A stretch of 64,000 nt of DNA, from positions 1 to 64,000 of the forward strand of contig JASBTR010000205.1 in the NCBI GenBank assembly GCA_030148325.1, read 5' to 3'. This document shows, one piece after another, positions 9,836 through 15,305 of the stretch (the first letter of the stretch is position 1; the number at the start of each line of letters is the position of its first letter). Under the pieces are notes generated by a model that had not been told where the DNA came from, did no database searches, and saw only the letters and a program-made list of their open reading frames with translations. Origin of the DNA: Gammaproteobacteria bacterium. Lineage in GTDB: Bacteria > Pseudomonadota > Gammaproteobacteria > UBA6429 > Thiohalophilaceae. The position numbers were made by a program, and so were the translations under genes.

Positions 9836-10279
9836 GTGAATTCAATGGATATTAATGAAATACTGAAATACCTGCCACACCGTTACCCCTTTCTGTTAAT
9901 CGATCGAGTGCTGGATTATAAAGCCGCTGAATACTTGCTGGCACTCAAGAATGTTTCCCATAACGAACCGCACTTCACGGGGCACTTTCCCAGGCGCCCG
10001 GTGATGCCCGGTGTTCTCATTACTGAATGTATGGCACAGGCTACGTCCATCCTTGCTGCGATTAGCACAACAAGGTCAGCCGATGATGACAATCTTTTCT
10101 ATCTTGCCGGTATCGATAAGGCGCGGTTCAAGCGCCAGGTTGAGCCGGGTGATCAGTTGCAGTTGCGGGTTGATTTTATCAAGGAAAAACGCGGGATCTG
10201 GAAGTTTGCAGCCGAGGCAACGGTTGCAGGCAAGCTTGTCTGCAGCGCTGAAATCATGTGTGCTGAACGGAAGATATGA
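9836..10279 (+). CDS. fabZ: 3-hydroxyacyl-ACP dehydratase FabZ
   Basis: FabZ dehydrates 3-hydroxyacyl-ACP in fatty acid synthesis and competes with LpxA for the same acyl pool. The hot-dog fold markers are [11 protein letters not shown] at residues 15-25 and [15 protein letters not shown], with catalytic His50 and Glu64. A GTG start at 9836 follows ACGGGGAAAC; an ATG at 9845 is an alternative. It overlaps lpxA by 4 nt. Confidence 0.96.
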
Positions 10280-11052
10280 TGAACATCGACCCGCGTGCCG
10301 TCATTCATCCTGATGCAAAACTGGCAGAGGGCGTCAGTGTCGGTCCCTTTTCAGTTATTGGCGCGAATGTCGAGATAGGTGAAGGAAGCTGGGTTGGTCC
10401 TCACGTCGTTATTAATGGGCCGACGACCATGGGGCGTGAAAACCGTATTTTCCAGTTCGCCTCCATTGGTGAGGCGCCGCAGGATAAAAAATTTCATGGT
10501 GAAGATTCAAAGCTGGTTATCGGCAATGGCAATACCATTCGTGAATTTGTCACCATCCATCGCGGTACTGAAGATGGCGGGGGTATCACATCAATTGGTG
10601 ATGATAACTGGTTGATGGCCTATATCCATATTGCGCACGACTGCATTATTGGCAATCATACTATTTTTTCCAACGGCGCATCCCTGGCAGGACACGTACA
10701 GGTGGATGACTATGCTATTCTGGGTGGCTTCACGCTGGTGCACCAATTCTGTCACATTGGTATACATGCTTTCTGCGGTATGGGCAGCGCTATTGGCAAG
10801 GATGTCACGCCCTATACATTGGTAAAAGGAAACCCGGCGCATCCTCGTGGATTAAATCTGGAAGGACTAAAGCGACACGGTTATTCCGGCGATCTTATCC
10901 GGGAACTACGGGATGCGTATAAAACAGTTTATCGTATGGGGCTGACTGCCGAGGAAGCGAGATCACGCTTAAGTGCGGTAGCTGAAAAGCATGAAGAGGT
11001 GCGCTTGTTTGTTGAGTTTATCGAAAACTCCGGGCGTGGGATTTTACGCTAA
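10276..11052 (+). CDS. lpxA: UDP-N-acetylglucosamine (or GlcNAc3N) acyltransferase LpxA
   Basis: LpxA puts the first 3-hydroxyacyl chain on the UDP-sugar in lipid A synthesis. The 258-residue chain is a left-handed beta-helix of hexapeptide repeats; catalytic His121 lies in HIAHDC and corresponds to E. coli His125. The position equivalent to E. coli Gly173, the hydrocarbon ruler, is Met169 in GMGSAIGKD, as in Pseudomonas aeruginosa LpxA, which favours a C10 chain. With GnnA/GnnB-like genes nearby, the true substrate may be UDP-GlcNAc3N. Confidence 0.95.
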
Positions 11053-11128
11053 ATTGTTATTACACCGAGCCTGATTCATTGGGTGGGATGCTGCTGAGGA
11101 ACGAAGCGCATCGGTCGAGTTAATTAAC

Positions 11129-12025
11129 ATGTCAGAAAAATATAACAAACCATCTACCTTACTGGCGATCAGCATTCTGGCGCTGGCAGCATCGCTGGTC
11201 TATCTCACCTTTGAATTATCCCGTTTTATCCGTCAGGTTCCGGATATACTGGAAAATATTCGTACAACCAGTGAAAAGGTAGAACCGGTGCTGGAAGAAG
11301 TCAGTCAGCTTCGTGATTTGATTCCGCCGATTCTTGATGAGGTTAGAGCAACCCGCAAACAGATCCCGGCAATTCTTGACGAAATCAAACATGTGCGTGA
11401 GGCGATTCCCCCGATCCTGACCGAGGTGGATAAAACACGGGAGCAGCTTCCGGTAGTGCTTGATGAAGTTGCGGCCGTACGAGGACAACTGCCATCGGTA
11501 CTGGCATCGGTTGATTCTGTGTCTACGGAAATGAAAGCCTATCGCCCGATTGCTTCTGATGCACTAATACAACTGAGTGAAGTAAGAAAAGAAGTACCCG
11601 TAACCCTGGATCGGGTTGATGGCCTTATTGCCAGTGCTGGCGTGGCAGCCGGTGAGGCAAGTTCCGGGGTGCTAACCGGCGCAATTAGCGGCCTGATAAC
11701 CGCACCCTTCAAAATAGTGGGAAGTTTCGCCAGTAGCATACTGAAAATGAGCGAGGATGAAGCGCATAATTATACCGAAGAGGATCTTCTCCTGGTTAAG
11801 GAACATGGTCAGAGTTTACTGGCTAAAGGGAAACTGAATGATTCGCACAAGTGGGAAAACAAGGACACAGGCAAGAACTTCAAGGTTAGCCTGAACAAGA
11901 TCTATTCAAAAGATAGTCTGGCATGCCGTGACCTGCTTCTGCAAGCATGGTCGGAGTCAAAATTAACAGTCAATAAAGTTGTTAGCGTTTGCATGAACGA
12001 TGAAGGTGAGTGGGAACATCATTAA
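11129..12025 (+). CDS. Membrane-anchored protein with seven 14-residue repeats and surface-antigen-like C terminus
   Basis: I do not recognise this 298-residue protein as a named family. It has a short cytoplasmic end, one membrane helix at residues 10-30, then seven tandem 14-residue repeats starting at residues 37, 51, 65, 79, 93, 107 and 121 with consensus IPPILDEVxxxRxQ, predicted to form a rigid helical stalk. Residues 173-205 are rich in Gly/Ala/Ser (glycine-zipper-like). The last 60 residues (HKWENKDTGK, then CRD, then VCMNDEGEW) resemble the C-terminal domain of 17-kDa surface antigen proteins. It stands alone between lpxA and a toxin-antitoxin pair. An envelope role is inferred. Confidence 0.8.
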   Translation: MSEKYNKPSTLLAISILALAASLVYLTFELSRFIRQVPDILENIRTTSEKVEPVLEEVSQLRDLIPPILDEVRATRKQIPAILDEIKHVREAIPPILTEVDKTREQLPVVLDEVAAVRGQLPSVLASVDSVSTEMKAYRPIASDALIQLSEVRKEVPVTLDRVDGLIASAGVAAGEASSGVLTGAISGLITAPFKIVGSFASSILKMSEDEAHNYTEEDLLLVKEHGQSLLAKGKLNDSHKWENKDTGKNFKVSLNKIYSKDSLACRDLLLQAWSESKLTVNKVVSVCMNDEGEWEHH

Positions 12026-12034
12026 TCTCTGCGG

Positions 12035-12187
12035 GTTTAATTCCCCGCTGCTTGCAGCGAAGTACTATTGTGCAGCTTCAACCCTTCATGCACAGGTGAG
12101 CTGCACATGTTCGCCTCATACTGCTCGAAGGGTAGAAGGCGGAACCTGAAACCAATACCACGTAGCTTGCTGCGGGGTAGTTTATTC
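12035..12187. repeat. Dispersed element, family I copy 1, in the 12026-12368 gap
   Basis: The stretch begins TTTAATTCCCCGCTGCTTG and ends CGTAGCTTGCTGCGGGGTAG, partly self-complementary ends, with smaller hairpins inside. The same order of blocks occurs at 29679-29807, and a left-end fragment at 22143-22200. The rest of the gap (12188-12368) shows no gene I can support. Confidence 0.7.
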
Positions 12188-12368
12188 ATATGCCAGGTAT
12201 GTGCCATGAGCGGCCGTTGTGCCATTAATACAAGTAGGCGGAGATTTCTCCGAAGCAGACAATCAGATAATGATATTTTTATTGATGAACTTGTATATGG
12301 CGCTCAGTCACAACGCTGCCGGATAAACCATCGGGCATAATGAATCGCGGTGGTAATTACCAACTTGC

Positions 12369-13171
<803 letters not shown>

Positions 13172-13189
13172 CAGAGTTTCTCTCCTATT

Positions 13190-13254
13190 TGTACTTATTG
13201 AAAGTGTACACGCATATCCGAGACTGTTCAAGCTGTACTTCTTCAATACGTACA
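13190..13254. promoter_or_regulatory. Twin operator of the toxin-antitoxin operon
   Basis: Two 21-bp palindromes of identical design, TGTAC-N11-GTACA, lie at 13190-13210 and 13234-13254, upstream of the antitoxin start (13171, minus strand). Their centres are 44 bp apart, about four helical turns, so two antitoxin dimers could bind the same face of the DNA. The promoter is probably within or between them. Confidence 0.75.
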
Positions 13255-13699
13255 AATGCTGCCTGTCGAACAAATGAAAATCTTTATAAATTCCAGATAT
13301 TTATCTTAAATGTGCCCGATCCAGAGGTTCCGCTTTTTGATAAATTTGATAAAACTTCCACAAAGCAGACTTTCTCCCTCATGGAATATTTTATAAGTGT
13401 GCTGGTTTGGCAAGAAGTGCCGGTTGGCTCCCCAAGCATGTTGCTTCCTTTCTAAAACAGTCATTTCGTCCATAAAAAGGGCTTTCCTGGCGCGATTTTA
13501 TTCCCTTTTAGGGCTGAAATACCATTATATTTCAAAGAATTGCGTGGGTCCGATCCCACCAGACCCAGCAGACATGTTAAACCTTACCAGTTGAGTCAGG
13601 TGATCCTAGCTTGATGGCTTGGGCTATTTTTTATTTGAGACTTATCACTGGAATTTGAATGCCACTGTTTATGGGAGCACCACCCTCGTAACGAAAGTC
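13255..13699. other. Gap between TA operators and transposase remnant
   Basis: No gene, RNA or clear repeat could be supported in these 445 bases. Short open frames occur but carry no recognisable motif. The stretch is AT-richer than the flanking housekeeping genes and is probably degraded mobile DNA. Confidence 0.5.
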
Positions 13700-13915
13700 G
13701 TAGTAGATTTAACTCACACCACATAAGCACAAAGATCAATAGCAAAGTGCTGGCCAGTTCCAGCAGGCGGTCTTCAATCCATTGTCTGCGATGTTCGTAA
13801 TTGTTGCCAGTGAAGGAGTCTTTACCACACAGAAAAGCGCGGCAACACAACGAGAAATGCAATGATAATAGGGAGTGGCATCAAGAGATACTAATGTTTT
13901 CCTTGGTTTTGGCAT
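13700..13915 (-). pseudogene. Y1 (REP-associated tyrosine) transposase remnant
   Basis: Starting at the ATG at 13915 (minus strand) the translation reads [19 protein letters not shown] then ISRCV, the N terminus of a widespread Y1-type transposase. A one-base loss near 13842 shifts the frame to [27 protein letters not shown], and another near 13755 shifts to [10 protein letters not shown]. The reading then ends before the HxH metal motif. At least two frameshifts and a large 3' deletion make it inactive. Relatives of this family mobilise REP-type palindromes. Confidence 0.8.
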
Positions 13916-14006
13916 AGCGCTGTCCCTAGCAGATTATTTGCATGAGATTACAAACTTGATATGCTTGTGTCAATTTATTGATGGGTGTCCATAATTAACC
14001 CTGGAA

Positions 14007-14155
14007 TTAGCAAATAGCACCGTCACCCTGGATGCGATGCACTGCCAGAAGAAGACGGCAAAATTGATCCGTCAACGTAAAGCGCATTATGTACTCTGTG
14101 TGAAGGGGAATCAGAAAGGCTTGCTGGAAGAGCTAACAGACTGGACACGATGCGT
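14007..14155 (+). pseudogene. ISAs1-family transposase fragment
   Basis: An open segment reads STVTLDAMHCQKKTAKLIRQ followed by RKAHYVLCVKGNQKGLLEEL, which is the DAMGCQ/KGNQ region of ISAs1-family (H-repeat type) transposases around the second catalytic aspartate. Only about 50 codons remain; both ends of the gene are gone. It abuts the 3' end of lpxB. Confidence 0.8.
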
Positions 14156-14174
14156 AAGATTGAGGCTTTCTGGC

Positions 14175-15305
14175 TTATTGCTTCAACAGTTCCATTGTCA
14201 ATTCAGCAAGATCGCTAACCTCAGCGTCTGAACTCAACTTTGCTCTTACTTTCTGTAATTCATGTCTAATTGACTGGTTATACTCTGGCTGTGTCAGCAT
14301 TCTGATAATTTCATCGGCAATTTTTTTCGCTTTGGCGTCATATTGAATCAGCTCAGGCACGACGCGTTTGCCGGCGACGATATTGCACAGGCCGATGTGA
14401 TCGACCTTGACCATCTGTTTTGCAATAAAATAGGAAAGAGCGGAGATACGATTGATGATGACCATCGGTGTGCCGATTAAGGCGATTTCAAGCGTCACCG
14501 TACCGGAGACGGTAACAATGGCGTCGCAGGCGGCCATGATATCGTAACTGCGATTTTCAATCATTGTAATGGGCGGCGTCTCTGCCTCAATATAAGGGGT
14601 GAAAATTTCACGTTTGAGGGTAGAGGCGACGGGCAGCAGGAACTGGATTTGCGGGTTCTGCTGTTTCAGTTGTTTTGCGGTTTCAACAATGATAGGCATC
14701 AGGCGTTTGACTTCGCTCTGGCGGCTGCCGGGAAACAGGCCCACCACAGGTTGCTCTGCATTCAGTCCAAATTCAGTACAGAGATGTTCTCGATCGGCAC
14801 TGGCATGGACTTCTTCGGCCAGTGGATGGCCGACAAAACGCACCGGGACATTGTGCCGGTGATAGAAGTCGAGTTCGAAGGGGAAAATGACCGCCATCAT
14901 GTCGACCAGTTTGCGAATTTTTTTGACCCGCCACTGACGCCAGGCCCAGATCTGTGGGCTGATATAGAACAGGACTTTTATGCCAAGCTGTTTGGCGGTT
15001 TTGGCAAGCCGTAGATTGAATTCGGGATAGTCGGTAAGAAACAGAAGATCGGGTGGATCCGTTTTCAGGATTTCGCGCATCCTGTCCAGCGCGCCGAAGA
15101 TTACCTTGCGATGCGCCCAGATCTCAATCAGGCCAACCACGGCCATCTCAGACGAGTCGACAAGAATTTCCACACCGGCCCTGCGCATAGATTCGCCGCC
15201 GATACCGAAAAATTTCACCGAGGGATCGATGTTATGCACGGCCTCAACCAGTCGGGCGGAATGCTGATCCCCGGAGGCCTCTCCGGCGATAATCATGACA
15301 CGCAT
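14175..15305 (-). CDS. lpxB: Lipid A disaccharide synthase
   Basis: LpxB joins lipid X to the UDP-diacyl sugar to form the tetraacyl disaccharide, at the inner membrane. The 376-residue GT-B enzyme begins MRVMIIAGEASGDQHSARL and has LPVASTLKREIFTPY and ATVSGTVTLEIALIGTPMV-type segments near residues 225 and 270. It is the last gene of a minus-strand operon, 9 nt after the gnnB-like gene. Relative to lpxA it is inverted and 3 kb away, although the two usually adjoin. Confidence 0.96.
   Translation of the reverse strand: MRVMIIAGEASGDQHSARLVEAVHNIDPSVKFFGIGGESMRRAGVEILVDSSEMAVVGLIEIWAHRKVIFGALDRMREILKTDPPDLLFLTDYPEFNLRLAKTAKQLGIKVLFYISPQIWAWRQWRVKKIRKLVDMMAVIFPFELDFYHRHNVPVRFVGHPLAEEVHASADREHLCTEFGLNAEQPVVGLFPGSRQSEVKRLMPIIVETAKQLKQQNPQIQFLLPVASTLKREIFTPYIEAETPPITMIENRSYDIMAACDAIVTVSGTVTLEIALIGTPMVIINRISALSYFIAKQMVKVDHIGLCNIVAGKRVVPELIQYDAKAKKIADEIIRMLTQPEYNQSIRHELQKVRAKLSSDAEVSDLAELTMELLKQ

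Follow-up and report, generated by a model that had tools for sequence, protein, structure and literature searches.

In the stretch of DNA analysed here (the window, 64,000 nucleotides), an open reading frame with an ATG start occupies positions 11129–12025 of the plus strand and encodes a protein of 298 amino acids, which is probably an inner-membrane-anchored coiled-coil rod with a C-terminal domain similar to 17kDa_Anti_2. The gene is single-copy in the source genome, its neighbours in the window are chromosomal housekeeping genes, and lpxA lies immediately upstream on the same strand (10276–11052; Pfam Acetyltransf_11 and Hexapep). The protein, encoded throughout on the plus strand, begins with a transmembrane helix (residues 10–28, positions 11156–11212), followed by seven contiguous 14-residue units (residues 37–134, 11237–11530), a connector of 21 residues (135–155, 11531–11593), an eighth unit (156–169, 11594–11635), a Gly/Ala-rich segment (180–206, 11666–11746) and the C-terminal domain (210–296, 11756–12016) with cysteines 266 and 288, homologous to PF16998 (17kDa_Anti_2). 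This order of parts, as well as the repeat, its heptad, the homology of the C-terminal domain and the near-constant length within the family, is demonstrated at the level of sequence. The helix 10–28, with a mean Kyte-Doolittle hydropathy of 2.19 over its 19 residues, is the only strongly hydrophobic one, in agreement with the single membrane anchor proposed in the initial annotation. The Gly/Ala-rich segment named there is also present, and the architecture, which the annotation could assign to no known family, found no curated full-length match among Pfam and NCBIfam profiles.

Units of the contiguous series start at residues 37, 51, 65, 79, 93, 107 and 121. Those at 65, 79, 93 and 107 are a good fit to the pattern IPPILDEVxxxRxQ; those at 37, 51 (which has VEPV) and 121 are degenerate. 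The seven repeats of exact length claimed earlier were thus recovered, three of them in degenerate form, and an eighth 14-residue unit, absent from the earlier list, was found behind the connector. In a BLOSUM62 self-similarity analysis the stalk gave z = 9.7 at lag 14 and, since none of 2000 shuffled sequences scored as high, the 14-residue repeat is not due to chance. The z value was 10.5 at lag 28 and −0.2 at lag 15, and the other top lags besides 14 were 28, 21 and 7. The composition of the repeat was estimated from a table of 45 Pro-led units taken from six members of the family; they were chosen by Pro at position 2, so that positions 1 and 2 are conditioned by the selection. Position 4 of these units is I or V in 37 of 45, position 5 is L in 37 and position 8 is V or I in 35, with Glu at position 7 and Arg at position 12 in 27 units each.

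The spectrum of hydrophobic residues (I, L, V, M and F) computed for residues 33–179 (147 residues) has its peak at a period of 3.50, with a power of 27.5 against the shuffle 95% level of 6.3, and at periods 3.60, 3.67 and 3.75 the power is 0.2 or less. The connector is exactly three heptads long and the heptad frame continues through it. With its peak at 3.50 and almost no power at these three periods, the spectrum shows a frame that is unbroken through the stalk. If position 1 of the unit is taken as a, positions 4, 5, 8, 7 and 12 correspond to d, e, a', g and e', respectively, and the unit Pro (position 2) falls at b, an outer, surface position of the register. Given the period of 3.50 throughout, the few glycines within the stalk and the surface position of Pro, the stalk is best read as a straight, continuous rod of coiled coil in which Pro recurs on the surface at intervals of about 14 residues. 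The spacing between g and e' is that of the usual interchain salt bridge in parallel coiled coils; Glu7 and Arg12 occupy these positions, which pair between chains, and this supports a parallel coiled coil. We infer that the rod is probably a parallel homo-oligomer. Helical hairpins or a stack of helical turns, which the initial annotation deduced from the 14-residue period, have to be abandoned in view of the unbroken heptad, the few glycines and the surface Pro; a solenoid is ruled out by the same heptad. A low-confidence AF2 model of the full protein (pLDDT 45.9, pTM 0.20) has one helix at 7–129 and another at 139–178, with a break around 130–138. Both this model and that of the isolated C-terminal domain (pLDDT 55.5) are poor because there were two input sequences only.

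The similarity of the C-terminal domain to the 17-kDa antigen, already suspected from the sequence, was substantiated by profile-profile comparison, which gave 99.2% (hhalign, E 6.6e-20) with nine short single-domain relatives having signal-peptide-like starts and 98.2% (E 3.5e-14) with six 17 kDa antigen lipoproteins. The window protein alone scored 23.4 bits with PF16998, below the curated cut-off of 26.6, and seven of the 18 aligned members of its family matched at E ≤ 0.01 (best 2.3e-8). By the profile-profile comparison the homology to PF16998 over the whole domain can be considered firm. Two cysteines are common to the domain and its relatives, the second being differently spaced in members G629 and G770. 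The relatives carry signal peptides or lipoboxes, as judged by eye, and the family is named after an outer-membrane antigen; soluble secreted single-domain proteins are also among them. Since the relatives are exported and the two cysteines are shared, the domain would be located outside the cytoplasm. The designation "surface-type", given to the protein initially, goes further than this: its relatives are secreted or lipobox-bearing, and nothing indicates exposure on the cell surface. In the window protein itself the first cysteine is Cys266 and none occurs near the N-terminus, so it has no signal peptide lipobox. No solved structure matching the profile of the single-domain relatives was found. 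Two of these relatives with signal-peptide-like starts, L011 (1417–1791) and L033 (1390–1962), lie near each other on one contig (G221), which suggests that a gene for a soluble 17kDa_Anti_2-like protein was duplicated in tandem.

Glycines of the Gly/Ala-rich segment stand at G180, G184, G188 and then G198, making a short run that seems to lack the long regular GxxxG of the lipoproteins. Its hydrophobicity is borderline, so that its insertion into the outer membrane is only conjectural: the best 19-residue mean is 1.40 in the window protein and ranges from 0.6 to 1.7 after residue 110 in the members. It is a probable membrane- or partner-docking helix. The 17 kDa antigen lipoproteins share with the rod protein the homologous C-terminal domain, the two cysteines, a W/N motif and a Gly-rich segment just before the domain; they are, however, only about 150 amino acids long and begin with a lipobox cysteine, where the rod protein has a transmembrane helix and a rod of 150 residues. 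SlyB, an outer-membrane lipoprotein of E. coli (PDB 7ojf), likewise combines a Gly-rich segment with a small adjoining domain; it matches the profile of the 17-kDa lipoproteins through the glycine zipper only, and gave no match to the window protein at E ≤ 1.

Homologues were sought in the window's own genome and its relatives, where a protein search of 40 genomes found two besides the own copy, and by profile in 40 genomes of the same family, in 369 of the class (twice, the second time with a better profile) and in 398 of the phylum. A homologue in L002 came from a search of genome contigs and is 62% identical to the window protein over its full length; L002 is apparently the contig that carries the G002 copy. 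The full architecture was found in five of the 40 family genomes. In the class sample, which was drawn evenly, it occurs in two of 369 genomes, the source genome included. In the phylum sample, a transmembrane helix, stalk and Gly segment occur together in 12 of 398 genomes (own included), all of one class, and seven of these 12 have the C-terminal domain; some match was registered in 101 of the 398, most of the remaining rows being C-domain-only. These counts leave out 17 weak stalk-only rows of the phylum search (E 1e-6 to 1e-3), four proteins that are unrelated low-complexity or other coil proteins (G447, G430, G450 and G274; L083–L086) and the stalk-only class rows L023, L025, L027, L030, L031 and L032, which are other coil proteins and not members. 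Judged by these searches, the homologues are patchily distributed within Gammaproteobacteria and make up a small, uncharacterised family; with such a spread (2/369 class genomes) the rod protein is no general component of the envelope. The titles and opening parts of abstracts on 17kDa_Anti_2 or the 17-kDa antigen, DUF948 and Pro-containing 14-residue repeats yielded no description of it. A phage origin was rejected, as 50,697 phage records contained no match for the rod protein, and a plasmid origin likewise: the sole match in the plasmid collection was a 2.1-Mb Photobacterium replicon.

The alignment comprises 18 members, including the one from the Photobacterium replicon, and Pro66, Arg153, Pro157, Gly188 and Pro193 are invariant in all of them. 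Twelve have the full architecture. Ten of these have a hydrophobic period of 3.50, and G217 and G753 one of 3.52–3.53, with a spectral power of 17.6–35.2 against shuffle 95% levels of 5.8–6.4; most show the 14-residue unit clearly, but it is weak in G217, G753, G561 and G463. In the other six (five genomes of one genus and Photobacterium) the protein terminates shortly behind the Gly segment, and the hydrophobic period is 3.60–3.66, that is, another coil geometry; lag 15 is the top one in three of them (G459, G488 and Photobacterium), and the remaining three have their top lag at 7 and lag 15 in second or third place. Profiles of the two subtypes align from the transmembrane helix to the Gly segment (hhalign probability 99.5%, E 6.6e-23), and masking of the stalk leaves a match of the tail (95.1%, E 3.1e-8). 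The stalk alone gave 98.5%, the reversed profile 24.2% and six column shuffles 0.1–0.2%, whereas five heptad-block shuffles reached 41–84%, so the full score is inflated by coil similarity. The case for kinship of the two subtypes is therefore made chiefly by the tail and by the arrangement of the parts. Resemblance of coils was rejected as a sign of kinship in general, matches in Pfam, NCBIfam and PDB (Laminin, SMC, syntaxin, chemoreceptors, adhesin stalks and designed coils) being those of a generic coil.

The charge on the N-terminal side of the transmembrane helix is +1 in the window protein, and that of the next 15 residues is −1. In 14 of the 18 members the net charge is higher before the helix than behind it; four have equal values, and no member has a lower charge before the helix. 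This bias predicts an N-terminus in the cytoplasm and a stalk outside, with which the exported kinship and paired cysteines of the C-terminal domain agree. The width often quoted for the periplasm is 20–25 nm. From the end of the transmembrane helix to the Gly segment, whose positions were set by hand from the alignment for all lengths and periods given here, the members have 130–169 residues (median 160, n = 18), or 19.3–25.1 nm as a helix. Two members, with 130 and 132 residues, fall clearly below the others; the length stays near 160 although the period and the number of repeats vary. On this measure the rod length would be close to the periplasm width, so that the initial proposal of a stalk passing from the inner membrane through the periplasm survives as regards length, and fails as regards the stacked turns or hairpins. 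In E. coli the distance between the membranes follows the length of Lpp, 14 additional residues of which widen the periplasm by 3 nm (PMC5736177, in part). Wild-type cells under hyperosmotic conditions have a distance of 30–32 nm, which is more than the rod alone would span, and the same work argues against Lpp length alone dictating the width of the periplasm (PMC8824477, in part).

The explanation that we favour, with moderate confidence, is a rod of coiled coil that is anchored in the inner membrane, extends as far as the outer one and serves as a tether or spacer for both. The N-terminal helix would remain in the inner membrane, its N-terminus facing the cytoplasm, a coiled coil of about 150 residues would cross the periplasm, and the Gly segment together with the C-terminal domain would dock at the outer membrane. 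Both this docking and the function as tether and spacer are what we infer; the length of such a spacer could be altered by whole 14-residue repeats. Length and predicted topology are compatible with an envelope-spanning tether. Known systems offer parallels: TolA, Lpp and phage spanins work by reaching across part or all of the periplasm, as is proposed for the rod protein; no sequence relation to any of them was found. Unlike the rod protein, Lpp is an outer-membrane lipoprotein fixed to peptidoglycan, and spanins are phage lysis proteins, whereas the rod gene has neither a phage match nor a phage lysis context. Envelope-spanning helical parts are also known in MCE proteins (TIGR00996), to which the rod gave a weak coil match (16 bits; cut-off 140.5), and Pfam detected no MCE domain in the window protein. 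If correct, the tethering rod would be a second, unrelated inner-membrane-anchored one with countable 14-residue units, allowing a direct test of length control by repeat number, and would connect the 17-kDa-antigen domain, which is widespread but poorly understood, with the architecture of the envelope.

One may suppose, more tentatively, that the family is a natural ruler of the periplasm, its rods keeping a total length near 160 helical residues in spite of changes in their internal geometry. Equally tentative is the corresponding shift from left-handed heptads (14-residue unit, 3.50) in members with the C-terminal domain to near-hendecad packing (15-residue unit, 3.60–3.66) in those without it. 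Were this true, selection would act on length and not on sequence or handedness. Conservation of length also speaks against an amphipathic, apolipoprotein-like protein, whose Pro-punctuated helices would bind lipid or rest flat against a membrane, because flat binding does not require a conserved length. The regular hydrophobic face fits such a protein, and a Pro starting each unit recalls apolipoprotein repeats; the period of 3.50 is, however, the value for supercoiled rods, and a conserved Arg stands beside the core at position 12, which makes lipid binding very unlikely. The C-terminal domain might instead bind peptidoglycan or a lipoprotein at the cell wall, where the rod would stop. Its soluble secreted single-domain relatives imply that it need not sit in a membrane, but the length of the rod greatly exceeds the distance from the inner membrane to the wall, and no peptidoglycan-binding family was matched in Pfam or NCBIfam, so that we regard a spacer of this kind as highly improbable.

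Rather unlikely is a scaffold of the FacZ/DUF948 type, in which a transmembrane helix and a coil organise proteins at the inner membrane and the outer one is not reached. For the N-terminal half, DUF948 (PF06103) is the best match in Pfam (28 bits, E 2.5e-6); it also matches 14 of the 18 members at E ≤ 0.01, and FacZ of S. aureus shares the single N-terminal transmembrane helix followed by a coiled coil, with a predicted reach of about 15 nm (PMC10914604, in part). The score of 28 bits is nevertheless below the curated 37.2 and covers the helix and coil only, as generic coils do. FacZ is N-out with its coil described as cytoplasmic, and its description, in the part considered here, names no Gly segment or 17-kDa domain (PMC10914604); the charges of the rod protein predict N-in, and its C-terminal domain belongs to an exported family. 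A signal relay, in which the rod would place a 17kDa_Anti_2-like sensor near peptidoglycan or the outer membrane and convey its state to the inner membrane or to a partner in the cytoplasm, seems quite improbable. The uninterrupted coil from the sensor-like end to the transmembrane helix does recall those of chemoreceptors, which are among the PDB matches, but the cytoplasmic tail has only about 10 residues and no output domain, there is no conserved neighbour, and six of the 18 members do without the C-terminal domain.

Genomic surroundings of the rod gene were compared in 19 regions, two of them on contigs of just 3.3 and 5.5 kb. The initial annotation had proposed to follow the spread near lpxA: this gene is common to the window and L002 only, so the linkage is confined to the window's genus and a general operon function with lpxA is ruled out. 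The rod gene lies 3' of lpxA at a distance of 76 nucleotides in the window and 6 in L002, and no promoter or terminator pattern clearly above chance was seen between them in the window. No partner gene is conserved across families in the compared regions, where blocks are shared only by the close kin L078–L080. In L002 the rod gene is followed by genes that were named by eye as a LysR-type regulator and RuBisCO-like. In G217 (L071, 2822–3271, minus strand) it stands directly behind the end of a gene for fatty acid cis/trans isomerase (CTI), an enzyme acting on membrane lipids; this was observed once only. In relatives the usual order is fabZ-lpxA-lpxB. It is broken in the window (9836–15305), where fabZ and lpxA are on the plus strand and lpxB is on the minus strand about 3 kb away. 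Between the rod gene and lpxB lies a pair of a GNAT toxin and a TacA1-type antitoxin (12369–13273, minus strand), recognised by Pfam Acetyltransf_7 (26.9 bits), Acetyltransf_1 (20.8 bits) and PF08681 (84 bits). In another class of the phylum, L084 (1880–2428, minus strand) encodes a different single-transmembrane coiled-coil protein of 183 amino acids that ends in FPFP and has a sub-threshold score of 25.4 bits with DUF948; it is possibly an analogous short rod.
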